DNA from: Bacteroidia bacterium
Lineage (GTDB): Bacteria > Bacteroidota > Bacteroidia > UKL13-3
Direction of reading: 5' to 3'
Assembly: GCA_021740845.1 (NCBI GenBank)
Contig: JAIOYZ010000015.1
Coordinates: 1 to 64,000, forward strand
Length of the DNA: 64,000 nt
The translations under genes were made by a program, and so were the position numbers. A model generated the notes under the pieces. The model did no database searches. It saw nothing but the letters and a program-made list of their open reading frames with translations, and was not told the DNA's origin. Positions within the stretch are counted from its first letter, which is position 1, and the number at the start of each line of letters is the position of its first letter. Shown piece after piece: positions 7,269 through 49,109 of the stretch.

Positions 7269-7275
7269 ATATACA

Positions 7276-18300: not shown

Positions 18301-19419
18301 ATGCTCAAATTTAAAGAGATAGCATCAAAAAATTATATTAATTTTCGTGGTTGGGCAACTAATAAAAAGTTTCTAATTATAGAAAGTGATGATTGGGGGA
18401 CAATAAGAATGCCCTCCAAAAAAGTATATGAGACGCTTTTAGAGAAAAATATTGAAGTAGACCGATTCAGTTTTGATAAGCAAGATGCTTTAGAATCCTC
18501 AGAAGATTTGACTTGTTTGTTTGATGTTTTAGAAAGTGTGAATGATACAAAGGGAAATCCTGCGGTTTTAACGGCATATCACGTGATGGCAAATCCCAAT
18601 TTTGAGTCGATTGAGGCCAATGGAAAAAATAGTTATGTGCATGAAACGATTATAGATACCTATAAAAGAAATTTACATACAGAAAATACTTTTGAATGGA
18701 TAAAAAAAGGGATGAAAAAAGGACTATATATTCCTCAATTTCATGGCAGAGAGCACATTCAAGTTAAAAGATGGATGGAAGCCATAAACTCAAATTCTAC
18801 TAAAGAAAAAATTGCCTTCGAAAATAAAGCCATTATTTGGACTGGTTCACCGAATGATTCAAATCCCTATAAAAAAGATTATTTTAAAGGGTTTGACTGC
18901 GAAACTGAACAAGAGGCTAAAGAAGTAGAAGTCATTCATCGGGATGGACTTCGTTTGTTTAAGGAAATTTTTGGTATGGAATCTATCACTTTTCAGGCAC
19001 AGGGTAGTGTTTGGGGAGACCATATATTACCAATGTTACATGAACAAGGAGTTCGATTAATTGGAGGCCAGCAAACCTACCCTAGCATTGGTGGTTACAA
19101 AACAGCAAATAAATATTGGGGTTCAAAAAATTCATTCGGCCAAATACATTGGCGGAGAAATTGTATGTTTGAGCCCGCAAGAAATCAAAATTTTGATTGG
19201 GTAGGTAAATGTTTAGCGGAAATTGAAATTGCATTTCGTTGGAGTAAACCAGCTGTGATTAGCTCACATAGAGAAAATTTTATAGGAAGTATTTTTGAAG
19301 AAAACAGAACCCAATCCCTACAAAAACTAGAAAGCTTACTTAAAAAGGTTCTTCAAAAATGGCCAGACGTGCAATTCATAAGCTCTGCCCGATTAGCTGA
19401 TATTATGCTGAAATCATAG
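18301..19419 (+). CDS. Polysaccharide deacetylase-like protein, copy 1
   Basis: The 372-residue protein belongs to a poorly described Bacteroidota family and is paralogous to the next gene. It shows IIESDDWGTIRMPS (about 27-40), which resembles the DD metal motif of CE4 deacetylases, QFHGREH with an H-x3-H pair, VWGDHILPML, and a late SSHRENF. A beta/alpha-barrel deacetylase or glycosidase fold is likely; activity is unproven. It begins one base after the TupA-like stop, and both copies lie in the middle of the glycosyltransferase block. Confidence 0.6.
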   Translation: MLKFKEIASKNYINFRGWATNKKFLIIESDDWGTIRMPSKKVYETLLEKNIEVDRFSFDKQDALESSEDLTCLFDVLESVNDTKGNPAVLTAYHVMANPNFESIEANGKNSYVHETIIDTYKRNLHTENTFEWIKKGMKKGLYIPQFHGREHIQVKRWMEAINSNSTKEKIAFENKAIIWTGSPNDSNPYKKDYFKGFDCETEQEAKEVEVIHRDGLRLFKEIFGMESITFQAQGSVWGDHILPMLHEQGVRLIGGQQTYPSIGGYKTANKYWGSKNSFGQIHWRRNCMFEPARNQNFDWVGKCLAEIEIAFRWSKPAVISSHRENFIGSIFEENRTQSLQKLESLLKKVLQKWPDVQFISSARLADIMLKS

Positions 19420-19429: not shown

Positions 19430-20533
19430 TTGAAAGAATACCTAAAAAAACATTTTATCAATGCTCGGGGTAAACGAACCTCTAAAAAACTATTAGTCAT
19501 CGAATCAGATGATTGGGGCTCGATTCGCATTCCCAATAAAGAAGTTCAGGAATACTTGTTTAATAAACAGCTAATTAAACAAACTGATCCATTTTCCACT
19601 TTTGATTGTTTAGAAAGTGCGAATGATTATGAGTCTCTTTTTGAAGTGTTGAAGAACCATAAAGATGATCATGATAAACACCCTGTTCTAACGGCTAACA
19701 TGGTGATGGCGAATCCAGATTTTGAGAAAATAAAAGCAAATCAATTCCAATCCTTTTATTCTGAGTCATTTGCAAAAACCTATGAAACCTATTATCCTAA
19801 TCAACAGACTTTTGAAGCTTTACAAAAGGGTATTGAGCAGAAACTGGTATTCCCTCAATTTCATGCCCGTGAGCATCTGAATGCATTGCAATGGTTGAAA
19901 CGTTTGCAAAGTGGTGATAAACGCTTTTTAATAGCCTTTGATGTTAACTGTTTTGCCATAGATGATCTTGCAAAAGGAAATAACAGAGTTAATTTGATGG
20001 CTAGTTATGATTATCAAAATGAGGAAGAGCTTGATTTTGTTAAGGAAAGCATCAATGAAGGGCTACAACTTTTTGAACAAACCTTTGGCTTTGGTTCCAA
20101 AACCACTATTGCTCCTTGTTATGTGTGGAATGACCATATTGAAAACGTATTGAACCAAAGTGGTGTCAAAAGTTTACAAAGTTCCTACATTCAACAAAAA
20201 AATCGTAGCGGGCGGCACGAACGTGTTTGGCAAAAAATGGGCAGTTCAAATCAATTCCAACAAAAATATTTTGTACGTAACGTATTATTTGAAACAGCTT
20301 TGAGCCATAAAGCTAACTGGGTAGAAAAGGCATTAGAGAGCATTTCCATTGCTTTTTTTTGGGGGAAGCCTGCTATCATAGGCTCACATCGTATTAACTA
20401 TGTATCTGGGTTGTCTTTGGAAAATAGAGAAAATTCTTTGAGTCAATTGGATGAGTTATTAAAAAGAGTGATTATTAAATGGCCAGATATTAAGTTTATT
20501 AATTCAAAACAATTATTTGATATGTATTCATAG
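19430..20533 (+). CDS. Polysaccharide deacetylase-like protein, copy 2
   Basis: The 367-residue paralogue of the preceding gene keeps all its landmark motifs: VIESDDWGSIRIPN, NMVMANPDFE, QFHAREH, YVWNDHIENVL and GSHRINY. Overall the two are clearly diverged, so the duplication is not recent and the copies may have different substrates. The start is TTG at 19430, ten bases after the previous stop. The shared Asp and His positions are the best guess for metal ligands. Confidence 0.6.
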   Translation: MKEYLKKHFINARGKRTSKKLLVIESDDWGSIRIPNKEVQEYLFNKQLIKQTDPFSTFDCLESANDYESLFEVLKNHKDDHDKHPVLTANMVMANPDFEKIKANQFQSFYSESFAKTYETYYPNQQTFEALQKGIEQKLVFPQFHAREHLNALQWLKRLQSGDKRFLIAFDVNCFAIDDLAKGNNRVNLMASYDYQNEEELDFVKESINEGLQLFEQTFGFGSKTTIAPCYVWNDHIENVLNQSGVKSLQSSYIQQKNRSGRHERVWQKMGSSNQFQQKYFVRNVLFETALSHKANWVEKALESISIAFFWGKPAIIGSHRINYVSGLSLENRENSLSQLDELLKRVIIKWPDIKFINSKQLFDMYS

Positions 20534-22550: not shown

Positions 22551-23693
22551 ATGAAAAAAAAACTCATTATAGGAATAACAGCTGAAGGTTCAGTGAATTT
22601 ATTGTCAGGTCAATTAGCCTATTTTAAATCACTTGGTTATGATACCTATTTATTGGCGCCTTATAGTGAAAGGTCGGCTGCATTTTGTGAGAGGGAGGGT
22701 TGTGTGCACCTAATTATTAAAATTGAGCGAGAAATTTCACCCATTAAGGATTTAAAATCACTTTGGGAAATATATAAGATTTTTAAGCGAATTGATCCAG
22801 ATATAGTTAATCTAGGAACTCCAAAAGTTTCACTTTTGGGGATGGTAGCTGCTTTTTTAATTGGTGTTCCAAAAAGAATTTACACCTGTAGAGGTTTTAG
22901 ATTTGAGCATGAAAATGGAATCAAGCGTTGGGTTTTAATAAGTATGGAAAAAATAACTTCCTTTTTTGCGCACAAAGTTATTTGTATTAGTAAATCAGTG
23001 GAAACTTTAGGGTTGAGAAATAAAATTTTTTCAAAAAATAAAAGTGAAGTTATTTTTAAAGGAAGCAGTAATGGCGTTAACCTTACCTTATTTAATCCTG
23101 AAAATGAAAAGTTAAAAAGTGCTCATCAACAATTGAAACAAAAATACCAATTACAATCCAAATTTATTTTTGGATTTTTGGGACGAATGGTGGATAGAAA
23201 AGGGATAAATGAGTTGTTTGAGGTGTTTTGCGAACTATATTCCAATCATTCAAATATTGCTTTACTATTAGTTGGCCCATTTGAATTAAGCCAAATACAA
23301 GATAAAACATTGGTTGATAAAATTAATAGACATCCGGGCATTATTAATTACGGAAAAGTAAGTCAAGAAGATGTTCCAGGAATTATGTTGACATTGGATG
23401 TTTTTGTATTACCTGCATGGTGGGAAGGATTTGGCAATGTGCTTGTGCAAGCAGCAGCTATGGGTATACCCGTAATATCCACCTATGGAACTGGGACGAT
23501 TGATGCCGTTTCTGAGAATTTTAATGGTATTTTAGTTCCTGTAAAGGATAAAATAGCCTTAAAAGAGGCTATGGTTACTTTGATGGATGATGATAAATTA
23601 AGAATGAATTATGGAAAGAATGGAAAGGTTTGGGCACAGCATTTCGACCGTAAATTAATTTGGGATGAAATGCATAAAATTTACCAAAATTAA
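22551..23693 (+). CDS. GT4 glycosyltransferase (PglA/CapM-like)
   Basis: The 380-residue GT-B enzyme has the N-terminal GITAEGSVNLLSGQLAYFKSLGYD, YTCRGFRFEH, CISKSVE and the donor-domain FGFLGRMVDRKGINELFEVF and PAWWEGFGNVLVQAAAMGIPVISTYGTG. It resembles the transferases that add the second sugar after a PglC-type priming enzyme, and it directly precedes such a gene. It could therefore be the first glycosyl transfer onto the primed lipid. Confidence 0.85.
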   Translation: MKKKLIIGITAEGSVNLLSGQLAYFKSLGYDTYLLAPYSERSAAFCEREGCVHLIIKIEREISPIKDLKSLWEIYKIFKRIDPDIVNLGTPKVSLLGMVAAFLIGVPKRIYTCRGFRFEHENGIKRWVLISMEKITSFFAHKVICISKSVETLGLRNKIFSKNKSEVIFKGSSNGVNLTLFNPENEKLKSAHQQLKQKYQLQSKFIFGFLGRMVDRKGINELFEVFCELYSNHSNIALLLVGPFELSQIQDKTLVDKINRHPGIINYGKVSQEDVPGIMLTLDVFVLPAWWEGFGNVLVQAAAMGIPVISTYGTGTIDAVSENFNGILVPVKDKIALKEAMVTLMDDDKLRMNYGKNGKVWAQHFDRKLIWDEMHKIYQN

Positions 23694-23695
23694 AT

Positions 23696-24301
23696 ATGTA
23701 TAGCAAATTTTTTAAACGATTTTTGGATTTAGCATTTTCAATGATTTTGATTGTTCTTTTATTCCCATTGATTTTAATTGTGGTTATTGGATTGGGATTG
23801 TATAATAAAGGCACACCATTTTTCACCCAATTAAGACCAGGTAAAAATGAAAAGGTTTTTAAATTGATTAAGTTCAAAACGATGCGAGATGGCTTTGATA
23901 ATATTGGAAATCCACTACCAGATAAACAAAGAATAACGCCCTTAGGATATTGGGTTCGAAAATTATCTATTGACGAATTGCCTCAATTATTTAATGTTTT
24001 AAAAGGGGAAATGAGTTTAATAGGGCCAAGACCATTATTGGTTAAATATTTGGTCTTATATAATGATAGGCAAAAGCGTCGACATCTTGCCAAACCTGGA
24101 ATTACTGGATGGGCACAAATTAATGGGCGAAATTCAATTTCATGGAATGACAAATTTGAATTAGATATTTATTATGTGGAGCATATTTCGTTTTTGTTTG
24201 ACATTAAAATTTTACTACTTACCTTCGTAAAACTATTTAAAACTAAACAAGTAAATGCTTCGGAGGGTATAACAATGCAACCATTTGAAGGAAATAATTA
24301 A
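23696..24301 (+). CDS. PglC-type monotopic phosphoglycosyltransferase (initiating enzyme)
   Basis: The 201-residue protein has a single N-terminal re-entrant hydrophobic helix (about 12-34) and the soluble core of the polyprenyl-phosphate phosphoglycosyl transferases: FKLIKFKTMRDG, the catalytic LSIDELPQLFNVLKGEMS (Asp-Glu dyad), IGPRPLL and KPGITGWAQINGR. It starts the repeat unit by moving a sugar phosphate onto undecaprenyl phosphate. The PglD-like and PglE-like genes nearby suggest a 4-amino-sugar donor of the bacillosamine/quinovosamine kind. Confidence 0.88.
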   Translation: MYSKFFKRFLDLAFSMILIVLLFPLILIVVIGLGLYNKGTPFFTQLRPGKNEKVFKLIKFKTMRDGFDNIGNPLPDKQRITPLGYWVRKLSIDELPQLFNVLKGEMSLIGPRPLLVKYLVLYNDRQKRRHLAKPGITGWAQINGRNSISWNDKFELDIYYVEHISFLFDIKILLLTFVKLFKTKQVNASEGITMQPFEGNN

Positions 24302-24307: not shown

Positions 24308-24532
24308 ATGGAACAAAATTTTTTAAACTTAGTAAAAGAGGTTCTTGAAATTGAGAATCTTGAAATTAATATGGATGACGATTTTCGCTCACTTGAGGTT
24401 TGGGATTCATTGGCAAATTTGTCGCTAGTTGCAATGATAGATGATGAGTTTGGGGTTGTTATTGAATCTCAGAGGTTCAAAGAATTGAAAACCTTTAGGG
24501 ATATCTTTAATGAAATAGAGAAAACAAAATAA
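24308..24532 (+). CDS. Acyl carrier protein 1
   Basis: The 74-residue acidic helical protein has the phosphopantetheine attachment motif in VWDSLANLSLV (Ser near residue 38). It differs strongly from a housekeeping AcpP and lies among acyl-modifying genes, so it probably carries a dedicated acyl chain for glycan decoration. It is the first gene of the acyl module, seven bases after the phosphoglycosyltransferase. A second ACP lies at 27967. Confidence 0.88.
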   Translation: MEQNFLNLVKEVLEIENLEINMDDDFRSLEVWDSLANLSLVAMIDDEFGVVIESQRFKELKTFRDIFNEIEKTK

Positions 24533-24534
24533 TT

Positions 24535-25278
24535 TTGATTTCTGATACTTTACAAGGTAAAACCATATTAGTTACAGGAGGTTCTTCTGGCATAGGAAAA
24601 CAGCTAGCTATTGATTTATCTAACTACGGAGCTAACTTAGTTTTAATTGGTAGGGATAAAGAAAAATTAGCTAGCACAAAAGAAAGTTGCAACAGAAATG
24701 TTGATATAAAGTGCTTTTCTTATGATTTAACTGCAACCGATTTTATTGAAAAATTTGCTCATTTTCTTGATGGTAATTTAGATGGGGTCGTTTTCAATGC
24801 GGGTAGGGTTAAGGTAAATCCTGTTCAATTTATTAGTAAATCTGAGATTGATGAATTTTTTGATATAAATATCAAAAGTAGTATGATAATATCTCAATTT
24901 CTGATAAGGAAAAAAAAGTTAAATACTGCCGCATCCATAGTTTTCGTATCTTCTATTGCTACTAAAAAGCCCACTGTGGCTAATTCAATTTATAATGCAT
25001 CCAAAGGGGCTGTGAATAGTTTTGCTCAATCTTTGGCAATAGAGGTTGCCTCTAAAAAAGTTAGAGTTAACACCATATTACCAGGATATGTAGAAACTAA
25101 TATTTTGGGGAGGGTTAGAACAGAAGAGGAAATTGAAAAGCATCAGAAAGAATATCTATTAGGTAGATTTGGAGAACCAAAGGATATATCAAATTTAATA
25201 TGTTTTCTTTTATCTGATTTATCTTTATGGATGACCGGAAGCCAAATTTCTATTGATGGGGGATACTCAATAAAATAA
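24535..25278 (+). CDS. SDR, FabG-like 3-oxoacyl-ACP reductase 1
   Basis: The 247-residue classical SDR has TGGSSGIGKQ (about 14-23), FNAGRV for NNAG, the catalytic FVSSIA Ser and YNASKGA, and the C-terminal GSQISIDGGYS. Its place next to an ACP and KASIII-type genes points to reduction of a 3-oxoacyl-ACP. FNAG instead of NNAG shows it is diverged from housekeeping FabG. The start is TTG at 24535, directly after the ACP stop. Confidence 0.8.
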   Translation: MISDTLQGKTILVTGGSSGIGKQLAIDLSNYGANLVLIGRDKEKLASTKESCNRNVDIKCFSYDLTATDFIEKFAHFLDGNLDGVVFNAGRVKVNPVQFISKSEIDEFFDINIKSSMIISQFLIRKKKLNTAASIVFVSSIATKKPTVANSIYNASKGAVNSFAQSLAIEVASKKVRVNTILPGYVETNILGRVRTEEEIEKHQKEYLLGRFGEPKDISNLICFLLSDLSLWMTGSQISIDGGYSIK

Positions 25279-25284
25279 ACAAAT

Positions 25285-25911
25285 ATGAATTTAGTAATAA
25301 TTGGTGCAAGTGGATTGGCAAGGGAGGTTTTTGACCTTGCTAATATTTGTTATAAGGACGTTCCAGGATTTAGAATCAAAGGGTTTTTAAGTGATGGGCC
25401 TTCAAATATAGAAGAAATGGGGTATCCGCCTGTATTGAATACAGTTGATGGGTATGAAATATCTCCTGGTGACTTGTTTTTTTGTGCAATTGGAAAAGTA
25501 AGTGATAGGAAAAAAACTACCGAAATTATCTTAACAAAGGGGGGGCGGTTTATTAATTTAATCCACCCAACTGCTATTATTTCTCCTAGTGCAAAAATAG
25601 GAGTTGGTGTTGCTATTAAAGCATTTTCATCCTTGGCTAGTGACGTAACTATTGGAAATTTTGTTTATTTGCAGAGTTCTGTTATAATTGGTCATGATGT
25701 AAAAATAGGGGATTATTGCCAAGTCAACTCCTTTGCTTTTTTTGCTGGCCATGTTCAAATAGAAGAGTTATGTACAATAAATGCAGGAGCAAAACTTATT
25801 CAAAATGTCAAGGTAGGGCGAGCGGCTGTTGTGGGGATTGGCAGTGTTGTTTTAAGTAGAGTAAAAAGTGAAACTACTGTTTTTGGTGTTCCAGCAAAAA
25901 TAATTTTATGA
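25285..25911 (+). CDS. NeuD/PglD-like sugar N-acyltransferase
   Basis: The 208-residue protein has an N-terminal Rossmann-like sugar-nucleotide domain (LVIIGASGLAREVFDLA) and a C-terminal left-handed beta-helix (HPTAIISPSAKIG ... VIIGHDVKIGDYCQVN ... FGVPAKII). The IGHDVKIG His corresponds to the general base of PglD. PglD acylates the 4-amino group of a UDP-4-amino sugar using acetyl-CoA. Surrounded by ACP and ketosynthase genes, this enzyme may instead use the acyl-ACP made here. The start is in line with the family. Confidence 0.82.
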   Translation: MNLVIIGASGLAREVFDLANICYKDVPGFRIKGFLSDGPSNIEEMGYPPVLNTVDGYEISPGDLFFCAIGKVSDRKKTTEIILTKGGRFINLIHPTAIISPSAKIGVGVAIKAFSSLASDVTIGNFVYLQSSVIIGHDVKIGDYCQVNSFAFFAGHVQIEELCTINAGAKLIQNVKVGRAAVVGIGSVVLSRVKSETTVFGVPAKIIL

Positions 25912-26870
25912 TGCTTTCAAGTAAAATTAATGGTATAAAAGTATTTGGGATGGCATCAGCTACTCCTAAGAATTATATTAATTCAGATTCAGCAACTTTC
26001 GGCTATTTTCAAAGTTATGAGGAGCAAACAACTTCTGATTTGGGCTTTATTGCAGCCAAAAGATTATTAGAGGATTTTGAAATAGATACGGAAGATATTG
26101 GGTATTTAGTATTTGGTTCAAAAACGCCTGATTACAGAAGTCCTACAAGCGCTGCGGTACTTCAGTCCCGCTTAAAGATAGGTATAGATTGTATTTGTTA
26201 CGATGTTAATATTGGGTCAAATGGATTTATACATATGATTCAATTAGGTGCATCTATTCTTGGTTCAATAAACAAAAAATTCGGACTCATTATAATTGGA
26301 GATACACCGTCTAAATTGAGAAAAGGGTCGGAGGATAATCCTTACCTTATTTCAGATGCATCAACTGCAATCTTGTTGAAGAAGGAAGAAAATGACAATT
26401 GTGAGCTATCGTTTTACAATAAGTCTATCGGGCGTTCTTATGAAAGTTTAATATTAAGGGCGGGCGGTTTTAGAGATTTAGATTTCGAAAATCCATTTGA
26501 CGCAACTAACACAAAAAACTTTGTTGTGTTCGAAAATTTGAATAAAATAAAACAAGAATTTAGAAACGCATTATCAGATTTCCCATTATTACTCACTCCA
26601 ACTAATCAGGTGTTTATTCATAGTAATTTATTGAATTGTTTAGAAGTTGGGGATTACTATGCTCTACAAAGAACCATTTTAGCTGATAGCTCCGAACTTC
26701 CAATTTTATTGTCGAAAATAACTACAGATTTGAATAAACCTTTAGCTTTTTGGTCAGGTGGTGAAGGTATAGCAATATACGGAATGGAGTTAAATCATTT
26801 GCCGAAATGTTTGCCAACAATTTCCACAAATGATGTATTTTTAGATTACAAAGTTAGTCATCAAATGTAA
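25908..26870 (+). CDS. KASIII-like protein lacking the catalytic Cys
   Basis: The 320-residue thiolase-fold protein is clearly homologous to the KASIII encoded next. Where the neighbour has DINLACSGF, this one has DVNIGSNGF, so the nucleophile Cys is Ser (about residue 104). The catalytic His is kept (VFIHSN), but the Asn loop (GNNSSNSIP in the neighbour) is replaced by ADSSELPIL. About 20 residues are also missing near residue 35. It is probably a non-condensing partner, as in KS/chain-length-factor pairs, not a pseudogene: the frame is intact and coupled to both neighbours. Confidence 0.78.
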   Translation: MMLSSKINGIKVFGMASATPKNYINSDSATFGYFQSYEEQTTSDLGFIAAKRLLEDFEIDTEDIGYLVFGSKTPDYRSPTSAAVLQSRLKIGIDCICYDVNIGSNGFIHMIQLGASILGSINKKFGLIIIGDTPSKLRKGSEDNPYLISDASTAILLKKEENDNCELSFYNKSIGRSYESLILRAGGFRDLDFENPFDATNTKNFVVFENLNKIKQEFRNALSDFPLLLTPTNQVFIHSNLLNCLEVGDYYALQRTILADSSELPILLSKITTDLNKPLAFWSGGEGIAIYGMELNHLPKCLPTISTNDVFLDYKVSHQM

Positions 26871-26877
26871 GGTAAAT

Positions 26878-27951
26878 ATGCTAGTAAGTAGATTTAAAGG
26901 ATTTAAAATTGGAGCATTATCGGTTGCTGTACCATCTCATAAAATTCAAATAAGCGATTTTTATGAATCATTTGGAAAAGATTTAGTGGACAAGTTTTCT
27001 GAAATGGCAGGCGTAAAACAAATTGCACATACTTCTTTAAAACAGACCGCATCAGATTTAGGGTTTATAGCAGCTGAAAAGGTTTTTGAAAGTGGTAAAG
27101 CTAAAAGAGAAGATATTGGTGTTTTGGTATTTGTTAGCCAAAAGCCAGATTTTAGAATCCCTGCTACCTCATTTGTTCTCCAGAAAAGATTAGGTTTAGG
27201 AGAGAATGTTATTTGTCAAGATATAAATTTGGCATGTTCAGGATTTATATTTGGGTTACAAACATCACTGTCTATATTATCAAATTTAAAAGGCAAAAAA
27301 GCACTATTGATTACTGCCGATACCTCCTATAAAACGATGTCGCCACAAGATAGGACAATGTTTATGCTTTTTGGTGATAGCGGTTCGGCGGTGGTATTGG
27401 AGAAAGACGATTTAAATAGAGAACAAATATTTGAATTAGCATTTAGAACAAATGGAGATAAATTTAAAAGCATAATAACCCCCGCAGGGGCTTTTAGGAA
27501 TAGGAATTTAAAGCCTATTGATGAGGTTTGGTCTGACGATATTGTTAGGAATGATTATAATACCCATATGAAAGGTATGGCTGTTTTCGAATTTTCAATA
27601 ACAGATGTACCAAAACTAATTAATGATTTTTATAAATATACTAATACAGATGCAAGCAGTTATGATAATTTTATTTTGCATCAGGCTAATTTATACATAT
27701 TGAAACAATTGTCAAGAAAATGCAAAATTCCTTTTGAGAAAATACCTTTGTCAATAGATAGGTTTGGAAATAATAGTAGTAATTCTATACCATTAGTTTT
27801 AAGCGATCATTTTTCAAATGCCGACAATAAAACTTTGAGATTGTTGATTTCTGGTTTTGGAGCCGGGTTATCATGGGCATGTGGAGCCATAAATATAGAT
27901 ACTCAAAATATTTTGCCAATATTTATTAGTGATGATTTTTTTATTGAGTAA
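26878..27951 (+). CDS. 3-oxoacyl-ACP synthase III (FabH-like)
   Basis: The 357-residue KASIII enzyme has a complete Cys-His-Asn triad: DINLACSGF (Cys near residue 120), FILHQAN, and FGNNSSNSIPL, plus MFGDSGSAVVL-type and GFGAGLSWACG segments. It would condense a starter acyl-CoA or acyl-ACP with malonyl-ACP. It sits directly after its inactive-looking paralogue and before an ACP gene, so a heterodimer acting on these dedicated carriers is likely. Confidence 0.88.
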   Translation: MLVSRFKGFKIGALSVAVPSHKIQISDFYESFGKDLVDKFSEMAGVKQIAHTSLKQTASDLGFIAAEKVFESGKAKREDIGVLVFVSQKPDFRIPATSFVLQKRLGLGENVICQDINLACSGFIFGLQTSLSILSNLKGKKALLITADTSYKTMSPQDRTMFMLFGDSGSAVVLEKDDLNREQIFELAFRTNGDKFKSIITPAGAFRNRNLKPIDEVWSDDIVRNDYNTHMKGMAVFEFSITDVPKLINDFYKYTNTDASSYDNFILHQANLYILKQLSRKCKIPFEKIPLSIDRFGNNSSNSIPLVLSDHFSNADNKTLRLLISGFGAGLSWACGAINIDTQNILPIFISDDFFIE

Positions 27952-27966
27952 TTAAAAATTTAAAAT

Positions 27967-28206
27967 ATGAATAATTTAGATAAATACAATCAAGTTTTTT
28001 GCGAAACATTTTCTGTTAATTCAGATGTTTTAGGAACAAATTTTAGCAACGACACTATTGAAAATTGGGATTCAGTATTACAATTGAGTTTAGTTACAAG
28101 TATCGAAGATGCCTTTGATGTAATGTTTGAACCAGAAGAAATTATGGATTTCAAATCCTACGAAAAAGGCAAAGTAATACTTCTAAAATATGATGTAATA
28201 ATATAG
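27967..28206 (+). CDS. Acyl carrier protein 2
   Basis: This 79-residue acidic protein has the attachment Ser in NWDSVLQLSLV (about residue 38). It is distinct in sequence from the ACP at 24308. Two carriers in one module suggest separate loading and extension roles, or separate acyl chains; the sequence does not say which. Confidence 0.85.
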   Translation: MNNLDKYNQVFCETFSVNSDVLGTNFSNDTIENWDSVLQLSLVTSIEDAFDVMFEPEEIMDFKSYEKGKVILLKYDVII

Positions 28207-28213
28207 ATTTTAA

Positions 28214-28957
28214 ATGCGATTAAACGGTAAAATAGCATTAATAACAGGTGCAAATAAAGGAATTGGTTTGGCTATAACCCAAAGATTTTTAGGAGAAGGA
28301 GCCATCGTTTATGCAGGAATAAAAAATGTTGCCGAAGCATCTTCAGACCTAAATATACTCAAAACTAAATTTGATAGTCAATTAAATATTATCAAACTTA
28401 ATGTTACTGAATCAGAAAATTGTAAAGAGGTTTTTCAGCAAATTAAAAAGAGTTGTGATAAAATAGATGTGTTAGTAAATAACGCGGGTATTGTTAGCTA
28501 CGAACTAGTACCCTTTATTGATTTTGAGAAACTTCAATTGATGATTCAAACTAATGTTGTTGGTTTGATAAAAATGTGTCAATTGGCGTCAAGGTATATG
28601 GCTAGGCAGAAATCAGGTTCAATTATTAATATTTCTTCCATAGTTTCTTTGAAGGGAGCTTCTGGCCAGGCAGCCTATTCTGCAACAAAGGGAGCGGTAA
28701 ATTCTTTTACTCTTAGTTTAGCTAAAGAGTTAGCTAATTCTAATATAAGGGTAAATGCAATTGCGCCTGGAATGGTTTCAACTGAGAGATTAAAGCAAAT
28801 ATCTCAAGAGAAATTTGGGGATAAGGTTAGCCAAATCGGATTTGGAAGGATGGCAAGCCCAGACGAGATTGCCGATATATGCTTATTTTTCGCCTCTGAT
28901 GAATCATCTTATGTTACCGGACAATTGCTTGGAGCAGATGGAAGCCTTACAATTTAG
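28214..28957 (+). CDS. SDR, FabG-like 3-oxoacyl-ACP reductase 2
   Basis: The 247-residue classical SDR has TGANKGIGLA (residues 11-20), VNNAGIV, the catalytic ISSIVSLKGASGQAAYSATKGA and SYVTGQLLGADGS. It is closer to canonical FabG than the copy at 24535. Two ketoreductases with one active KASIII fit a product with two hydroxyl groups, or two rounds of extension; this is inference. Confidence 0.83.
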   Translation: MRLNGKIALITGANKGIGLAITQRFLGEGAIVYAGIKNVAEASSDLNILKTKFDSQLNIIKLNVTESENCKEVFQQIKKSCDKIDVLVNNAGIVSYELVPFIDFEKLQLMIQTNVVGLIKMCQLASRYMARQKSGSIINISSIVSLKGASGQAAYSATKGAVNSFTLSLAKELANSNIRVNAIAPGMVSTERLKQISQEKFGDKVSQIGFGRMASPDEIADICLFFASDESSYVTGQLLGADGSLTI

Positions 28958-28959
28958 AT

Positions 28960-30345
28960 ATGATATTTGATATAGATATAAAAGAACCATCAACTGTTGC
29001 TCTTAAAGACGATGGAGGAAATATTCTAAAATATGGTGAATTGGCTAATATACTGCGTGATAAAAGTGATATATTACCAAAAAGGTCTTTAGTTTTTGTT
29101 TTAGCAGATAATTCTACTTCAGTAGTAAGCTTTTTAATTACTTGCTTTGAAAACAAATGGGTTCCTTTGTTATTGAATGGAGATTTAGACTCTTTATTGT
29201 TAGAAAATTATATTCATACCTACAAGCCAAATGCTATTTTTAGCATGGGGTTAAATCTTGGTTTAGATGTTTACAAAACAATAGGTTGGGATAATTATAA
29301 AATTGATAGTATCAATTCTGAAAATTTAGACTTACACGATGATTTAAGTTTTTTATTACCCACTTCTGGAAGTACTGGAAGTCCTAAATTAGTTAGACAC
29401 TCTTATAATAACATAATTTTTAGTGCAAAGAGTGTTTCAAGTTTTTTTGAAATCCAAACTTCTGATGTAGGATTAGGAATACTACCTGTGTATTATACAA
29501 TGGGTTTTTCAGTTATAACAAGCCATTTACAAGCTGGTGCTAAAGTCGTATTAAGCAATTATTCACTAACTGACCGTGGATTTTGGGATATTTTAAAGAA
29601 TGATGGGATTACAATTTTAACAGGTGTGCCATATACGTTTGAGGTTATGTTTAAAATGAGATTTGAAAGAATTAAAATTGAAAGTCTCAGAATTATATCT
29701 CAAGGTGGTGGGAAATTATCTGAGTCATTATGGAATGGTTTACAGGTATATGCCGAGAAAAATAACATACAGTTTATTCCAACATATGGACAAACTGAAG
29801 GCACTGCTCGAATGTCGTACCTAGAATCTGAGAGTGTTAAAGAAAAAATTGGAAGCATTGGTAAGGCTATACCTGGAGGTTATTTTGATATTTTGGGTGA
29901 AAATAATACAATTATTGAGGAGATAGAGGCGTCTGGCGAGTTAATATACCGGGGAGACAATGTTACCCTAGGATACGCCGAAGCCTTGCAGGATTTATCT
30001 AAAGGTGATGAAAGATTTGGAGTATTAAATACCGGAGATATAGTAAGGAGAGATAAAGATTCGTTTTATTTTATAATCGGAAGGAAAAAGAGGTTTTTAA
30101 AAATATTTGGACTTAGAATATCTCTAGATGAAGTTGAAAGCTTAATTAAAAATAATTTTGAAACTGATTGTTATGCCAGCGGAGATGATACATCTTTAAA
30201 GGTATTTACTACTAATATAGACATTGTTGATGAATTAAAAATGTGGCTTTCATCAAAATTAAATTTATTTCACCAGGCAATACATATTGATTTTATTGAG
30301 GAGATACCAAGAAATACTGCGGGAAAAGTTATTTTTAATAAATGA
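28960..30345 (+). CDS. ANL-superfamily acyl ligase (acyl-ACP/CoA synthetase-like)
   Basis: The 461-residue adenylating enzyme has the A3 loop LPTSGSTGSPKLVRH (about 127-141), PTYGQTEGTARM (A5), NTGDIVRRDKDSFYFIIGRKKRFLKIFGLR (A7/A8 hinge) and a C-terminal PRNTAGKVIF Lys. It is shorter than typical acyl-CoA synthetases and the N-terminal subdomain is reduced. In this setting it probably loads an acid onto an ACP. It begins two bases after the SDR stop and overlaps the next gene by four. Confidence 0.82.
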   Translation: MIFDIDIKEPSTVALKDDGGNILKYGELANILRDKSDILPKRSLVFVLADNSTSVVSFLITCFENKWVPLLLNGDLDSLLLENYIHTYKPNAIFSMGLNLGLDVYKTIGWDNYKIDSINSENLDLHDDLSFLLPTSGSTGSPKLVRHSYNNIIFSAKSVSSFFEIQTSDVGLGILPVYYTMGFSVITSHLQAGAKVVLSNYSLTDRGFWDILKNDGITILTGVPYTFEVMFKMRFERIKIESLRIISQGGGKLSESLWNGLQVYAEKNNIQFIPTYGQTEGTARMSYLESESVKEKIGSIGKAIPGGYFDILGENNTIIEEIEASGELIYRGDNVTLGYAEALQDLSKGDERFGVLNTGDIVRRDKDSFYFIIGRKKRFLKIFGLRISLDEVESLIKNNFETDCYASGDDTSLKVFTTNIDIVDELKMWLSSKLNLFHQAIHIDFIEEIPRNTAGKVIFNK

Positions 30346-30965
30346 AAGTAATACGTTTAATTTCCCCATATAGGTCTACAAATAATTATTTAGTTGATAT
30401 AGGTGAAAATAATTTCATAGGAGTTGATATTGGTAATATCGATATTGAAACAGTACTAAGAAAAATAGGTTTTCCAACTGGCAAAATAGTAGCATATTTC
30501 TTAACTCACGCTCATGCAGATCATTGCATGGGTATAAAAGATGTTCATGCCAAATTTAATATGCCAATTTATTGTTCAGAATCTTGTATTGTTGAAATAG
30601 GTGATTCGAGAAAAAATTTTTCCTTTTATTCTGATGAAATTAAGCTTTTTGAATATAATCTACCATTTCAAAAGGTAGAAGATTTTCAAGAGATCAATAT
30701 TGGAGGGGTAAAAATTAAAACCATTTTGGTTCCGGGACACAGTCAAGGATGCGCTGCTTTTTTATTTAATGATATTATGTTCACAGGAGATTTTTTAATG
30801 TTGAACCACAAAACACCACTTAAATTTCCAAATAGTAACCTTAAGCACTACAAAGAATCTCTCAATAAATTCTTGAATCTAAATTTTGGAATTGAAAAAT
30901 TTTATCCTGGGCATGGAGAGACTTTTCAACAAATTTCACAGATTAAACATTTAAGTGTCCATTAG
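30342..30965 (+). CDS. Metallo-beta-lactamase-fold hydrolase (glyoxalase II/BaeB-like)
   Basis: The 207-residue protein has the metal motif THAHADH (His56, His58, Asp60, His61), VPGHSQGCAAF, FTGDF and PGHGE, as in glyoxalase II relatives. Similar hydrolases in trans-AT polyketide clusters clear acyl groups from carriers, and a thioester-editing or releasing role would suit the neighbouring ACPs. The link is by context. It ends the translationally coupled acyl module. Confidence 0.8.
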   Translation: MKVIRLISPYRSTNNYLVDIGENNFIGVDIGNIDIETVLRKIGFPTGKIVAYFLTHAHADHCMGIKDVHAKFNMPIYCSESCIVEIGDSRKNFSFYSDEIKLFEYNLPFQKVEDFQEINIGGVKIKTILVPGHSQGCAAFLFNDIMFTGDFLMLNHKTPLKFPNSNLKHYKESLNKFLNLNFGIEKFYPGHGETFQQISQIKHLSVH

Positions 30966-31017
30966 ATATAAAAACATTATCACAATTATATAATTTAGAT
31001 ATTAAAATAATTTATTC

Positions 31018-32148
31018 ATGAACAATAAAATATGGCTCTCTTCCCCGCACATGGGAGGCAAGGAGCAAGAATTTGTAAAAGAAGCTTTTGATACCAATTG
31101 GGTGGCTCCTTTAGGTCCAAATGTAGATGGATTGGAAAAGGATTTGGAGGCCTTTACAGGTGCAAAACATGCGGCTGCCTTAAGTTCGGGAACCTCTGCC
31201 ATACATTTAGCATTAATTATGTTAGGTGTAAAAGCAGGTGATTATGTATTATGCCAAAGTTTTACTTTTAGTGCATCTGCTAATCCAATTGCATATCAAG
31301 GAGCAACTCCAGTATTTATAGATTCCGAAAAAGATACTTGGAATATGAGTCCTGAATATTTGGAGAAAGCTATAATAGAGCTAATATCTAAAGACCAAAA
31401 GCCAAAAGCTATTATACCAGTGCATCTTTATGGTGTGCCGGCAAAGATGGATGAGATAATGGCGATTGTGGCGAAATATGATATTCCAGTGATTGAGGAT
31501 GCCGCAGAGGCTTTGGGTTCAACCTTAAATGGAAAAGCTTGTGGTACCTATGGGCAGTTGGGTGTTTTATCATTTAATGGTAATAAAATTATTACAACCT
31601 CTGGTGGTGGTGCATTGATTTCTGATAACGAGGATTACATTACTAGATCAAGGTTCTTAGCAACACAAGCAAGAGACAATGCTCCGCATTACCAACATTC
31701 ACATATTGGTTATAATTATAGAATGAGTAATATTACTGCTGGTATTGGCCGCGGACAGATGTTGGTTTTAAATGATAGAGTAGCTCAGCGCAGGTTTAAT
31801 TTTGAGTTTTACAAAAAGGCATTTGCAGGCTATGTAGGAATTAGTTTTGTGGAAGAATTACCTGGCGCTTTTGCCAACAGATGGCTCACATGTATTTTGG
31901 TTGATTCAAATTTAACAAATGGCAAAACCCGCGAGGACATAAGAATAGCTTTAGAGAAAGAAAACATTGAATGCAGACCATTATGGAAACCCATGCATTT
32001 GCAACCCATATTTGCAGATGCTCCATTTTATGGTGATGGAACAGCAGAAAAACTTTTTAAAGATGGCCTTTGCTTACCTAGTGGTTCTAATTTAACTGAG
32101 AAAGATTTGAATAGGGTGGTTGAGGCTATAAAATTAGTTTTAAATTAA
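31018..32148 (+). CDS. PglE-like UDP-4-keto-sugar aminotransferase (DegT family)
   Basis: The 376-residue PLP enzyme begins IWLSSPHMGGKEQEFV, the hallmark of the PglE/LegC branch that aminates C4 of UDP-4-keto-6-deoxy-GlcNAc. It has SSGTSAIHLALIMLGV, VIEDAAEALGS, and the PLP Lys in SFNGNKIITTSGGGAL. With the PglD-like acyltransferase and PglC-like transferase it would supply an N-acylated 4-amino sugar. A retaining 4,6-dehydratase (PglF type) for its substrate is not in the window. The gene is followed by a terminator. Confidence 0.88.
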   Translation: MNNKIWLSSPHMGGKEQEFVKEAFDTNWVAPLGPNVDGLEKDLEAFTGAKHAAALSSGTSAIHLALIMLGVKAGDYVLCQSFTFSASANPIAYQGATPVFIDSEKDTWNMSPEYLEKAIIELISKDQKPKAIIPVHLYGVPAKMDEIMAIVAKYDIPVIEDAAEALGSTLNGKACGTYGQLGVLSFNGNKIITTSGGGALISDNEDYITRSRFLATQARDNAPHYQHSHIGYNYRMSNITAGIGRGQMLVLNDRVAQRRFNFEFYKKAFAGYVGISFVEELPGAFANRWLTCILVDSNLTNGKTREDIRIALEKENIECRPLWKPMHLQPIFADAPFYGDGTAEKLFKDGLCLPSGSNLTEKDLNRVVEAIKLVLN

Positions 32149-34871: not shown

Positions 34872-36149
34872 TTGGTTTTGGAAGCAGCAAAAAACGATAT
34901 AACATTTACTTTAATTGGCAATGGGCATATTGGCAAAAGGCATGCGGCTATTATTGAAGCTTTGCCTGATGCTGAGTTGGTTATTGGGAAGCGAGAAGCG
35001 AGAGACGAGAATCGAGAAGGAGAGGAGACATTAGAAGGGCTAAGGCAAAAAGTGGAAGAGGATTTGCCAGAAGCCAGAAGCCAGAAGCTAGTAACCGTTA
35101 TCGCTACCCCCAATTATCTCCATTGCAAGCAAGCAATTGCTGCTATGGAAAATGGGTCAGATGTGATTATTGAGAAGCCAATGGGCTTGAATGCTGAGGA
35201 ATGTAGATTGGTGATAAAGCGAGCGAGTGAGTTGGATAAGAAAGTATTTTGTGTGATGCAAAACAGGTACTCTCCTCCTTCAGTTTGGTTAAAAGATTTG
35301 ATTGGTTCAAACCGATTAGGAAAAATATTCCAAGTGCAGGTAAATTGTTTTTGGAATAGAAATGAGAGTTACTACCAAGGAAGTTCTTGGAAGGGAAAAC
35401 TGGAAAAAGATGGTGGGACTTTATTTACTCAATTTAGTCATTTTGTGGATACGCTGTTTTGGTTGTTTGGGGATATTGAGCCTATATCTGCGCAGTTTTT
35501 TAATCACAATCATCCGTATATAGAATTTGAGGATAGTGGTGTTATTAGTGCTGTTAGAGTTAAGAATGAAGAGTTAAGAATTAAGAGCCCTATTAACTCT
35601 TCACTCTTACCTCTTACCTCAGAAAATACTCTTACCTCTTCACTCTTACCTCTTAACTCAAAAAGTGCTCTTCACTCTTCACTCTTACCTCTTACCTCAG
35701 AAAATACTCTTACCTCTCCACTCTTACCTCTTCACTCAAAAAGTGCTCTTAACTCTTCACTCTTACCTCTTCACTCTTTCCCAATTCAAATAAACTACTC
35801 CACCTCCGCTTATGCACAAAATTTGGAAAGCAGCATTACCATTTTGGCGGAGAATGGAAATGTGAAGGTTGGTGGGCAATATATGGATCAGGTTTTAGTT
35901 TGTAATATCAAGGATTATGAGATGCCTGAGCTAAAGCCAACCTTGCCTCCTAATAATTATGGAACCTATAAGGGCAGTGCCAGCAACCATGAATATGTTT
36001 ATAAGAATGTATTGGACGTACTTAATGGATTAGCAGAGATTGATTGTACAGCGGAAGAGGGTTTGAAAGTAGTGGAGTTTATTGAGAAAGTGTATGCGTT
36101 AGACCCTTTCTCACGGAGCCCACAGAAGAGGCACGGAGAACACAGATAA
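34872..36149 (+). CDS. wbpB: WbpB/WlbA-like UDP-GlcNAcA 3-dehydrogenase with repeat insertions
   Basis: This Gfo/Idh/MocA oxidoreductase oxidises C3 of UDP-GlcNAcA, the step before amination by WbpE. The N-terminal GNGHIGKRHAAIIEAL, IATPNYLHC and VIIEKPMGLNAEE (EKP motif) and the later GGTLFTQFSHFVDTLFWLFGDIEP fit WbpB/WlbA. At 425 residues it is about 100 longer than the family. The excess comes from two runs encoded by short-period repeats: about residues 39-73 (KREARDENREG and following) and about 229-302 (26-residue units NSSLLPLTSENTLTSSLLPL...). The frame is intact; whether the enzyme folds is uncertain. The start is TTG at 34872. Confidence 0.78.
   Translation: MVLEAAKNDITFTLIGNGHIGKRHAAIIEALPDAELVIGKREARDENREGEETLEGLRQKVEEDLPEARSQKLVTVIATPNYLHCKQAIAAMENGSDVIIEKPMGLNAEECRLVIKRASELDKKVFCVMQNRYSPPSVWLKDLIGSNRLGKIFQVQVNCFWNRNESYYQGSSWKGKLEKDGGTLFTQFSHFVDTLFWLFGDIEPISAQFFNHNHPYIEFEDSGVISAVRVKNEELRIKSPINSSLLPLTSENTLTSSLLPLNSKSALHSSLLPLTSENTLTSPLLPLHSKSALNSSLLPLHSFPIQINYSTSAYAQNLESSITILAENGNVKVGGQYMDQVLVCNIKDYEMPELKPTLPPNNYGTYKGSASNHEYVYKNVLDVLNGLAEIDCTAEEGLKVVEFIEKVYALDPFSRSPQKRHGEHR
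34988..35090 (+). repeat. AG-phased heptamer array inside wbpB, first insertion
   Basis: AGCGAGA and AGACGAGA words run into a diverged purine-rich middle and then three exact AGCCAGA units (35069-35088). It sits where the family has the beta-strand/loop between the dinucleotide-binding Gly motif and the conserved TPNYLH. Confidence 0.8.
35556..35778. repeat. CTCTTAC heptamer array with 78-bp higher-order unit inside wbpB
   Basis: A short direct part (AGAGTTA, AGAATTA, AGAG) is followed by a long inverted part of CTCTTAC, CTCTTCA and CTTAACT words, which on the minus strand are AGGTAAG and AGTGAAG. Within it a 78-bp unit occurs about 2.3 times (CACTCTTACC at 35602 and again at 35680). Since 78 is divisible by three, it encodes a 26-residue protein repeat. 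Confidence 0.85.
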
Positions 36150-36848: not shown

Positions 36849-37320
36849 TTAACACAAAGGACACAAAGAAATCACAAAGAGCACTATGGAAGATTTTAAT
36901 GAAAATGAATTGTCGAAAGTGGCTATAGATTGTGCAATAAAAGTGCATAGAAATCTGGGGCCTGGATTACTTGAATCAGTTTACAAAGAATGTTTGTATT
37001 TTGAATTGGGTAAAATGAATCTATTAGTTGAGAAAGAAAAGCCCTTGCCAGTGGTTTATGAGAGCATAAAATTAGAATGTGGTTATCGAGCAGATATTGT
37101 CATTAATAATAAATTGATTTTGGAATTAAAATCGGTAGAAGGAATAAATGAAATTCATGTTGCTCAAACTTTAACTTATCTGAAGCTTTCTAGTTGTAAA
37201 TTGGCTTTATTGATTAATTTTAATGTTTTATATTTAAAGGACGGTTTGAAAAGAATAATAAAGGGTAAGCTATAATGACTTTGTGTTCTTTGTGAAAATC
37301 TTTGTGTCCTTTGTGTTTAA
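36849..37320. repeat. Inverted repeat flanking the GxxExxY gene
   Basis: AACACAAAGGACACAAAG (36851-36868) has a perfect 18-bp inverted partner at 37300-37317. Diverged copies of the same short-period CACAAAG words lie just inside each arm. The arms frame the gene at 36886-37275 like terminal repeats. Confidence 0.88.
36886..37275 (+). CDS. GxxExxY protein (PD-(D/E)XK-like)
   Basis: The 129-residue protein has the name-giving GLLESVY (about residues 27-33), followed by YRADIVINNKLILELKSVEG, where Asp, Glu and Lys match a PD-(D/E)XK nuclease core. The family is scattered in many bacteria, often in several copies per genome; its function is unknown. Here it splits the wbpB-wbpD-wbpE order and is framed by an 18-bp inverted repeat, so it looks like an inserted unit. 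Confidence 0.88.
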   Translation: MEDFNENELSKVAIDCAIKVHRNLGPGLLESVYKECLYFELGKMNLLVEKEKPLPVVYESIKLECGYRADIVINNKLILELKSVEGINEIHVAQTLTYLKLSSCKLALLINFNVLYLKDGLKRIIKGKL

Positions 37321-46343: not shown

Positions 46344-47401
46344 AAAGCAGATTAATCCTCCTCTTTTTTCTTATATTTTGTGCTCGGTTTCTGCAAGCAC
46401 AAGATCCCGTTTATTCTTTAAGTTTTGAACACAAATCCTTGATGAATCCAAGTTTGATTGGAAGAGATGGAGAAGGTAAAGTTAGGGTTGGAAGTGTATA
46501 TAGAAATTTGTACAAACCACTTTATGGAAATTTGCAAGCAAGCGCTGTTACTGCAGATTATAGCTTTTGTAATTCCATCATCGCAATTGGACTTATTGCA
46601 GGTAATGAAACCCAAGGTGGAGGTTTTCTTAAAACCAATAATATGGCTGGAATATTGGGGTTAAGAAAAAATATCAAGCGAGATTGGGCCTTAAATGCGG
46701 GGTTTCAATTCGGTTTGATCAAACAAAATTTAGATTGGGGAAATTTAGTTTTTTCGGATCAGTTGAACCCGATATTTGGTCCTATTTACCAAAGCTCCAA
46801 TGATAATTTAAGATTGAGTTCAAAGCTCTCGGCAGATTTGGGTTTTGGACTTGACTTAACCCATTTCAACTATGGCAAAAACGGTTCAAAAAATGGGATG
46901 AATTTTGGGTTTGCCATGATGCACGCCACCAACAATACTAATTTGGGTGTATTAACCAACTATGTTTTGCCACGACGATACACATTTCATGGCAATTGGA
47001 TACATAGGAAGAATCCAAACAACAGTGCAAATTCATTTCAAATAATGGCAAGATACGACCAGCAATATCAGTTTAAACAATGTTTGCTGCGCATGAATTA
47101 TTTCTTTTTAGATGAGTTTTCATTAGGACTAGGTTATAGAGGATCTTATAGCTTTGCGGGCAATATTAATTCACCCTTGTTTGTAGCTAATTTCGCTTTG
47201 AACCAACAATTAAATTTCCAAGTATTGTATGAATATTCCTTAGGAGGAAGTGGATTGCTAAATGCAGGAAATACCTTTGAAATAGGATTGATTTTTAGAT
47301 CAGCATCTTCCTATTGTATTTCGGATGGAAAGGTAACCAAAAGCCGAGGAAGAAATGTTTGTCCGGTTTTCAATAAAACCAAATCTGCTCCAACGTTTTA
47401 G
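46340..47401 (+). CDS. PorP/SprF-family type IX secretion membrane protein
   Basis: The 353-residue outer-membrane protein has a signal peptide (cleavage near LQAQ/D, residue 21) followed by the family opening DPVYSLSFEHKSLMNPSLIGRDG and a beta-barrel of alternating strands, ending FALNQQLNFQVLYEYSLGGSGL...FEIGLIF. PorP/SprF proteins are encoded next to type-B T9SS cargos and are needed for their secretion or attachment. The four-base ATGA overlap with the giant cargo gene supports a dedicated pair. Confidence 0.92.
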   Translation: MKSRLILLFFLIFCARFLQAQDPVYSLSFEHKSLMNPSLIGRDGEGKVRVGSVYRNLYKPLYGNLQASAVTADYSFCNSIIAIGLIAGNETQGGGFLKTNNMAGILGLRKNIKRDWALNAGFQFGLIKQNLDWGNLVFSDQLNPIFGPIYQSSNDNLRLSSKLSADLGFGLDLTHFNYGKNGSKNGMNFGFAMMHATNNTNLGVLTNYVLPRRYTFHGNWIHRKNPNNSANSFQIMARYDQQYQFKQCLLRMNYFFLDEFSLGLGYRGSYSFAGNINSPLFVANFALNQQLNFQVLYEYSLGGSGLLNAGNTFEIGLIFRSASSYCISDGKVTKSRGRNVCPVFNKTKSAPTF

Positions 47402-48010
47402 AATATAGAGTCCAGAATCCAGAATCCAGAGAAATTAGCCCTGGGATTGGAGAGATGATAGAATTATTTTCCCATGGCTTTAGCCATATTTTTAAATGTT
47501 TTGGGTTTAAGGTTTTGGGTTTTTGGAAAAAACACGATTAGATGAAAATAATCAATAGCCCGAGGCTTTAGCCTCGGGGATTCGAGAGAAGATGAAATTA
47601 TTGATCCCATGGCTTTAGCCATATTGTTAAAGGTTTTGGGTTTACAGTTTTGGGTTTTTGGGAGAAACACGATATGAGGAAATTAATCAATAGGCCGGGG
47701 CTTCAGGAAGGCGGGAATCCAGAAGCGAGAAACGAGATGCGAGAGACGAGAAAAATTGTTCCCATGGCTTTAGCCATATTGAAAAATGTTTTGGGTTTAA
47801 GGTTTTGGGTTTTGGGAAAAAACATGATAAAAGGAAATTAATCAATAGCCCGGGGCTTCAGCCCTGGGATTGGAGAGATGATGGAGTTATTGTTCCCATG
47901 GCTTTAGCCATATTGTTAAAGGTTTTGGGTTTACGGTTTTGGGTTTTGGGAAAAAAAACATGAGATAGGAAAATAATCAATAGCCCAGGGCTTCAGCCCT
48001 GGGATTATTT
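47402..48010. repeat. Composite REP-like/heptamer repeat region A
   Basis: Four units of about 135-155 bp begin at AATCAATAG (47550, 47685, 47840, 47975). Each has a head palindrome such as CCCGGGGCTTCAGCCCTGGG, a spacer that may contain AGAAGCG/AGAGACG heptamers (47718-47752), the second palindrome in TTCCCATGGCTTTAGCCATATTG, and then heptamers GGTTTTG/GGTTTAA. Open frames here are repeat translations and were not annotated. The rest, to 48113, is AT-rich and unique. Confidence 0.9.
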
Positions 48011-48113
48011 TTGTATAATATTTTAAAATTTTTGTTTTATAAATAATGAAGATTCACGAGTATTGAGGCGTATTTGTGGGTGATTTATGATAATAAAAAA
48101 TTGAAATTATAAT

Positions 48114-49085: not shown

Positions 49086-49109
49086 TTCTTGTTTTATATT
49101 TTATTTTGG

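Follow-up and report, generated by a model that had tools for sequence, protein, structure and literature searches.

A predicted dead ketosynthase paired with an intact one in a candidate acyl-sugar cassette of a Bacteroidia polysaccharide locus

The stretch of DNA analysed here, positions 1 to 64,000 of contig JAIOYZ010000015.1 from a Bacteroidia bacterium (assembly GCA_021740845.1; the whole 64,000 nucleotides are referred to as the window), carries a surface polysaccharide locus in which nine tightly packed genes at 24308-30965 form a candidate acyl-building cassette. The cassette includes two adjacent genes related to 3-ketoacyl-acyl carrier protein synthase III (KASIII), only one of which encodes a complete catalytic triad, and this pair is the main subject of the present work.

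Gene content and recurrence of the cassette

An earlier sequence-only reading had described ten near-contiguous genes following a PglC-type initiating transferase. The coordinates and the Pfam and NCBIfam profile matches, by which the genes were assigned, bore this out, as all ten open reading frames (ORFs) at 24308-32148 were found on the plus strand, in agreement with that reading. The first nine are separated by gaps of at most 15 bases, with two pairs overlapping by 4, while a gap of 52 bases separates the ninth from the tenth. The run begins with an acyl carrier protein, ACP1 (24308..24532; PF00550, PP-binding, E 3.3e-9; WDS motif), followed by SDR1, a 3-oxoacyl-reductase-like short-chain dehydrogenase/reductase (24535..25278; PF13561/PF00106) with 39-53% identity in the related cassettes, and by an N-acyltransferase of the PglD/NeuD/VioB type (25285..25911; TIGR03570, 177.5 bits against a cut-off of 160.8). 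The KASIII-related pair comes next: KSb (25908..26870), predicted to be catalytically dead, and KSa (26878..27951; PF08541/PF08545), which is intact. A second carrier, ACP2 (27967..28206; WDS motif), precedes a FabG-like reductase, SDR2 (28214..28957), whose best NCBIfam match was TIGR01830 (3-oxoacyl-ACP reductase) at 211.6 bits, below the cut-off of 297.75. An acyl-adenylating ligase of the ANL family (28960..30345; PF00501, AMP-binding, E 5e-38) and a metallo-beta-lactamase (MBL)-fold hydrolase (30342..30965; PF00753, Lactamase_B) complete the cassette. The tenth gene encodes a DegT sugar aminotransferase of the PglE/LegC type (31018..32148; PF01041).

Two short peptide patterns (the KSa trio), run against the GTDB species genomes, retrieved 10 loci, which is a lower bound. 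The order ACP1-SDR1-PglD-KSb-KSa-ACP2-SDR2-ANL was identical in nine distinct loci, namely the window and L089-L096, the ANL gene being cut by the contig end in L093. As these first eight genes recur, with their order unchanged, in eight loci besides the window, the run is not due to chance. The MBL gene followed the ANL gene in six of the eight loci whose contig continues (window, L089, L090, L091, L094 and L096). In a further locus, L097, the contig starts within KSb; orthologues of ACP2 occupied the same position in this and the eight preceding loci, that is, in 9 distinct loci other than the window (L089-L097). L098 was identical to L096 over the nine cassette genes and was excluded from the counts, and loci retrieved twice on the same contig were counted once (L092 = L049, L096 = L050, L115 = L091). 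The isolate Gelidibacter mesophilus DSM 14095 carries L094; the remaining complete loci come from records titled as metagenome-assembled genomes, mostly of Bacteroidota, and among the contig labels of such genomes those of L093 (Bdellovibrio) and L097 (Spirochaetia) may reflect mis-binning.

The cassette is rare but scattered. Matches of KSb grade to the KSb profile (E 1.1e-118 or better) were found in 3 of 395 genomes of a class sample, own genome included, and these three match by construction, their KSb being part of the profile; no further KSb was found in that sample, where the next best match, after those genomes' own KSa, was 3.5e-61. For the weaker matches, the residues were read in nine genomes with loci and in the genomes fetched earlier. 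Within the family, KSb was present in 3 of 64 genomes, own included, with residues read in the 11 genomes over threshold, and in a phylum sample of 395 genomes, a single-sequence search returned a match of KSb grade in the own genome alone. Such single-sequence searches gave the KSb of L050 only 1.1e-22, so divergent copies could escape them. Among open-licence PMC papers we found no earlier description of a dead KASIII, or of such a cassette, in polysaccharide loci.

A dead and a live ketosynthase side by side

The sequence-only reading had listed a KASIII-like enzyme and a KASIII; the analysis rejected the view of the two as equivalent. KSb gave in Pfam only a weak match to the KASIII N-terminal domain (21.2 bits, under the cut-off of 24); it does align with KASIII proteins, with Ser in place of the nucleophile Cys and with the His and Asn positions lost, a state which that reading had missed. 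All nine complete KSb copies carry another residue in place of the nucleophile: four have Ser, two Asn, two Gly and one His. The triad of KSa consists of Cys120, His268 and Asn298 and is kept in 10/10 copies, those of the window and L097 included. Across 40 loci picked by similarity to KSb, and hence not a random sample of KASIII, the only dead ketosynthases (KAS) were the KSb copies of L049 and L050, and in both loci an intact KSa gene comes immediately after; in the 38 loci of this set without the cassette, 50 of 50 KAS (ORFs >300 aa) had Cys-His-Asn. Intact triads were likewise read in all 11 KAS from the nine class genomes that ranked next (L106-L114). Taken together, the sequences suggest that KSb is a KASIII pseudo-enzyme with a lost nucleophile and probably a structural partner of KSa.

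In a tree of 69 KAS, built by a quick method, the 9 KSb rows formed one clade and the 10 KSa rows another, both with an SH-aLRT (approximate likelihood-ratio test) value of 99, although the long KSb branches of the window and L096 meet and their exact placement is unsure. Mean pairwise identity was 0.33 for KSb, 0.60 for KSa and 0.67 for PglD. The best-conserved stretch of KSb comprises residues 61-100, including a TPDYR.P loop, and the rest evolves fast; the matching loop of FabH presumably reaches the active site of the partner subunit. A C-terminal tail resembling V[ST]HE[IM] is common to most copies, which have 28 invariant positions and range in length from 320 to 366 aa. The ratio of non-synonymous to synonymous substitution rates (dN/dS) was 0.22, computable for only one pair, with dS near saturation. 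Pairwise distances of KSb and KSa correlated at 0.90.

An AlphaFold2 model of KSb, built from a nine-row alignment, adopted the thiolase fold, with a predicted local distance difference test (pLDDT) score of 70.1 and a predicted template-modelling score (pTM) of 0.76. Its best structural match was 4efi (Foldseek E 1.1e-19; Z 26.4, root-mean-square deviation 3.5, 301 residues). Because model residues 1-307 align with KASIII structures, we rejected the idea of a truncated fragment; to judge by the model, KSb looks like a complete pseudo-enzyme. No match to a defence system was found for KSb, ANL or MBL.

KSa and KSb are joined in the tree, at a support of 100, by a sister KAS group from eight loci (L051-L057 and L059). 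Each of these eight sister cassettes combines a single intact KASIII with a longer ANL (509-514 aa). In the seven loci with further sequence (all except L053), the next genes encode a protein of 268-286 aa, two SDRs, an ACP and an MBL. The 268-286 aa protein gave a GNAT-family match in L059, where it was examined, and an extra small carrier-like ORF was present in the three sister loci inspected (L051, L054 and L059). Priming by an ANL thus appears to be a broader theme among acyl cassettes.

Proposed pathway, alternatives and setting

The other catalytic genes of the cassette also look active from their residues. His137 of PglD is invariant in the related copies and aligns with the His of the perosamine N-acetyltransferase 4ea7, which is Asn and Ala in chains 4eaa and 4eab; an N-acyltransferase of this type lies within the cassette in 9/9 loci, and its identity is 63-77% among the related cassettes and 24-42% in other loci. 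The TSGSTG motif and Lys456 of the ANL are invariant in the nine sequences aligned, as are the metal-binding positions His56, His58, Asp60, His61, His133, Asp150 and His191 of the MBL in the seven aligned.

These features led us to propose, with moderate confidence, that the nine-gene cassette makes a short oxygenated acyl group for a UDP-4-amino-4,6-dideoxy sugar, that this group is attached to the 4-amino position of the sugar ahead of the priming of the surface polysaccharide by PglC, and that KSb and KSa act as a heterodimer. The ANL would activate a carboxylic acid and load it onto ACP2, and SDR2 may act on the loaded acid either before or after condensation. The heterodimer would condense the ACP2-borne starter with malonyl-ACP1, with KSa as the sole catalyst and KSb providing a scaffold and a cross-subunit wall. 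SDR1 would reduce the resulting 3-oxo group. The 3-hydroxyacyl or, alternatively, dihydroxyacyl chain on ACP1 would then be moved by PglD onto the amine of the sugar, and the MBL could serve as an editing thioesterase that removes stalled or mis-loaded thioesters. We infer that ACP1 is the condensation and final carrier because ACP1-type carriers are common in other loci and ACP2-type carriers are rare, and ACP2, the putative ANL-charged carrier, lies near the ANL gene: an ACP best matching ACP1 occurred in 35 of the 38 non-cassette loci, only 3 of which also hold one best matching ACP2. No dehydratase was seen in the cassette, and within the cassette of the related loci there was no ORF of at least 120 aa besides the named genes; therefore, hydroxyl groups should remain on the product unless a host dehydratase acts in trans, which suggests a hydroxyacyl chain.

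Several observations weigh against this proposal. The KSb of L091 keeps the aligned His and Asn beside its Ser, the only one of the nine complete copies with both. In L097, both residues are also kept by the partial KSb, whose start and nucleophile region are off the contig, and these two proteins may therefore retain some activity. The KSb model is of moderate confidence, 50 of its residues having a pLDDT below 50; behind the best match, PqsBC, OleA and FabH chains were among those tied at about Z 22, so that PqsBC is not set apart. The correlation between KSb and KSa is nearly equalled by PglD (0.87) and SDR2 (0.84) and may reflect shared history only. ACP2 had no Pfam or NCBIfam match, and for both SDRs the best-ranked Pfam name, PF13561, denotes an enoyl-reductase family, which leaves their reductase roles unsure. 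The nearest solved structures gave only generic matches for the ANL, whose substrate is not readable from the sequence. A dehydratase of the host might contribute in trans, and the MBL, which does not follow the ANL gene in L092 and L095, may be non-essential.

Different roles for KSb have to be considered in this context. The KASIII-fold protein DpsC reportedly acts as an acyltransferase using Ser in place of Cys, and KSb could likewise be an enzyme of another kind that loads the starter or transfers the acyl chain. The Ser found at the nucleophile position in four of nine copies, together with the retained His and Asn of L091, would fit such an enzyme; the Gly, Asn and His of the other five, and the restriction of both triad residues to L091, make this improbable, since a catalytic role common to all copies could hardly be maintained with such varied replacements. 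Its faster evolution and variable length could instead mean that KSb is a decaying duplicate and that the cassette runs on KSa homodimers. We regard decay as quite improbable, because KSb has an open frame in all nine loci, always stands directly before KSa and forms one clade, and because of its invariant positions, the tail in most copies and the dN/dS of the single pair.

As for the product, an unlikely but appreciable alternative is a 3,5-dihydroxyhexanoyl group like that of Flavobacterium psychrophilum, built by iterative condensation from acetyl-CoA with the ANL and the second ACP as accessories. The sequence-only reading had offered this group as a precedent, and nothing in our analysis fixes it as the acyl group. 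The two reductases without a dehydratase are compatible with it, and PglC, PglD and PglE together with CapE/F/G would fit two of the sugars of the F. psychrophilum polysaccharide; however, the dead/live KAS pair and the two ACPs are unlike the wfp gene set as its available text describes it, and the conservation of the ANL active-site residues in all nine aligned sequences implies a loaded starter acid. It is very improbable that the cassette makes a diffusible acyl compound, such as a signal or a secondary metabolite, and lies in a glycan locus by accident. PqsA and PqsE are the ANL- and MBL-like parts of the pqsA-E set of Pseudomonas aeruginosa. An ANL and an MBL accompanying a dead/live KASIII pair do partly resemble that set (PqsBC: PMC4807248, in the text available), but PglD lies inside every cassette and a glycosyltransferase is co-inherited with it in all eight other loci that have an upstream flank.

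That glycosyltransferase, of the GT4 type (22551..23693, plus strand; PF00534), is the probable transferase acting on the acylated sugar. Its homologue was found upstream, at 47-73% identity, in 8/8 distinct related loci with upstream flank (L089-L096), and 21 of the 38 non-cassette loci, several of which are short stretches, have any ORF best matching it, at no more than 36% identity. VioT is described as strictly recognising an N-acyl modification (PMC3927599), and by that analogy a co-inherited glycosyltransferase fits an acyl-specific acceptor or donor. The PglC/WcaJ-type initiating sugar-phosphate transferase (23696..24301, plus strand; PF02397, E 4.2e-59) is not cassette-specific, since it is 54-62% identical in four related cassette loci (L089, L091, L095 and L096) and 50-59% in many loci without the cassette.

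The aminotransferase, which would make the 4-amino acceptor, is a sugar C4 aminotransferase of the PglE type by sequence; its nearest solved chains were 1o61 (E 2.9e-99) and 4ztc (E 1.6e-98), which we take to be PglE of Campylobacter jejuni. It lies directly after the MBL gene in L091 and one gene further on in L089. We rejected it as a cassette member proper and assign it to the locus, because 11 of the 38 non-cassette loci have a homologue of 61-85% identity. No long PglF-type UDP-GlcNAc 4,6-dehydratase was found in the window. One is present on another contig of the same genome (C65:56077-57975) and matches a PglF-like protein of L068 at 48%; among ORFs of at least 150 aa in the surrounding 19.9 kb none matched KASIII. 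The description of the acyl module as self-contained was therefore too strong. Its broader idea, a dedicated acyl set serving N-acylation of a 4-amino group, stands in part: the carrier, condensing and reducing genes and the PglD, PglC and PglE types agree by family matches and by two published precedents, and the equivalence of the two KASIII did not hold.

The sequence-only reading had also named CapE/F/G as suppliers of N-acetyl-L-fucosamine (L-FucNAc). Genes resembling CapE, CapF and CapG are present on the plus strand (3951-4982, 5616-6737 and 7240-8460), interspersed with other ORFs, and are a probable source of UDP-L-FucNAc; they scored 544.8 bits for FnlA (cut-off 730), 228.7 for a WbjC-type reductase (cut-off 500) and 233.2 for WecB (cut-off 210.15), the first two thus under the NCBIfam equivalog cut-offs. 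Wzx, Wzy and sugar-nucleotide genes lie elsewhere in the window.

Other features of the window were also recorded. The adjacent proteins of 18301-19419 and 19430-20533, alike by eye, had no Pfam match, the first also no NCBIfam match at 1e-10; with relatives in at least 10 of 40 fetched loci, they seem to form an unnamed family conserved in polysaccharide loci. Three small ORFs unrelated to sugar pathways lie among the polysaccharide genes (539-895, 6820-7191 and 36886-37275): two small proteins alike by eye, which we assume to be of the S23/four-helix type, and a PDDEXK_3 protein (Pfam). A 2467-aa protein (38940-46343), presumably ending in a gliding/secretion-type C-terminal domain, and the following gene (46340-47401), which we take to be PorP-like, adjoin the locus. 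A 78-base tandem repeat at 35593-35776 (2.3 copies, 96% matches) lies in frame within a Gfo/Idh oxidoreductase ORF (34872-36149), repeats at 1556-1669 lie near the start of the ORF at 1488-2963, and dense arrays at 47435-49865 have periods of 82, 134-161 and 290 bases, plus TAAAACC repeated 7.9 times. A DNA pattern for one of the window's repeats returned 0 matches.

Comparison with known systems

The C. jejuni Pgl pathway adds an N-acetyl group from acetyl-CoA, in contrast to the ACP-built chain proposed here. Enzymes of the PglE, PglD and PglC types, with an unchanged order of action, are common to it and the window; the difference is that PglF is part of the pathway while the PglF-type gene of this genome lies outside the window. 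In that bacterium, PglC, PglD, PglE and PglF make up the bacillosamine pathway, as cited in the available text of PMC6519341.

The general acyl-sugar chemistry is already precedented by wfp and vio, and the window has features of both: an ACP beside a KASIII and a ketoreductase in a glycan locus, and a PglD with a catalytic-type His. In the F. psychrophilum polysaccharide, the solved structure has a 3,5-dihydroxyhexanoyl amide on 2-acetamido-4-amino-2,4,6-trideoxyglucose (Qui2NAc4N), and the R1-group genes comprise wfpC-G, pglE, pglF and the fln genes (PMC6519341). As far as the available text of that paper goes, the two systems have in common a dedicated ACP, two KAS genes, a ketoacyl reductase, PglD and PglC homologues and L-FucNAc genes. 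The wfp set is described there as one ACP, one reductase, two KAS and PglD, with no ANL or MBL mentioned, in a cluster that also has ORFs of unknown function. The window, with an extra ACP, SDR, ANL and MBL and with one KAS dead, is thus not a wfp set proper, and the F. psychrophilum precedent invoked by the sequence-only reading holds for the general chemistry and not for the gene set. The wfp order KAS-ACP-KAS-reductase, deduced from the gene letters, was found in L058, L061, L062 and L071, with both KAS intact.

In the viosamine island of Pseudomonas syringae, vioA, vioB, vioS, vioR and acp make an N-(3-hydroxy-1-oxobutyl) sugar, and the flagellin glycan of vioR (reductase) and vioB mutants lacks the N-hydroxybutyryl sugar (PMC3927599). 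An aminotransferase, a VioB acyltransferase, a KASIII, a reductase and an ACP are common to both systems, going by the text available. The island acts on dTDP-viosamine and flagellin, and the seven ORFs described there include a single KASIII and no ANL, MBL, second ACP or dead KAS.

The closest parallel for the KAS pair is PqsBC of P. aeruginosa, whose solved structure is a heterodimer of PqsB, without catalytic residues, and the active PqsC (PMC4807248). Both systems have adjacent KASIII genes with one member lacking catalytic residues; as described in the text available, PqsBC uses octanoyl-CoA for an alkylquinolone product, and PqsC lacks the triad Asn that KSa keeps as Asn298. PqsC was absent among the 58 chains matching the KSa profile at E <=1e-10, and the KSb profile matched it at 2.8e-6, far more weakly than many FabH-type chains. 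No PqsB-named chain was among the best 60 of 66 chains for the KSb profile, which does not by itself settle kinship. The retained Asn and the absence of PqsC at E 1e-10 led us to reject filing the pair under the PqsBC family; from this comparison, KSb and KSa can be read as a KASIII heterodimer working like PqsB and PqsC without belonging to that family.

The N-acyl groups on 4-amino sugars are described as influencing serotype specificity (PMC6519341, in the text available), and the organisation of the carriers and condensing enzymes that build them has so far been largely inferred from gene content. A fixed dead/live KASIII cassette represents a testable system for the control of chain building by a non-catalytic KASIII subunit, and since KSa, unlike PqsC, has a complete triad, the contribution of the dead partner could be examined next to a fully equipped catalyst. 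As a sequence signature, the cassette might also serve to predict acylated glycans in uncultured Bacteroidota. More tentatively, KSb and KSa could represent a second, independently evolved KASIII heterodimer, ANL-primed and served by two separate ACPs, in which the dead subunit shapes the active site of the live one as chain-length factors do for KS-alpha, and which would build an acyl decoration of a kind not seen before on the surface glycans of scattered Bacteroidota.

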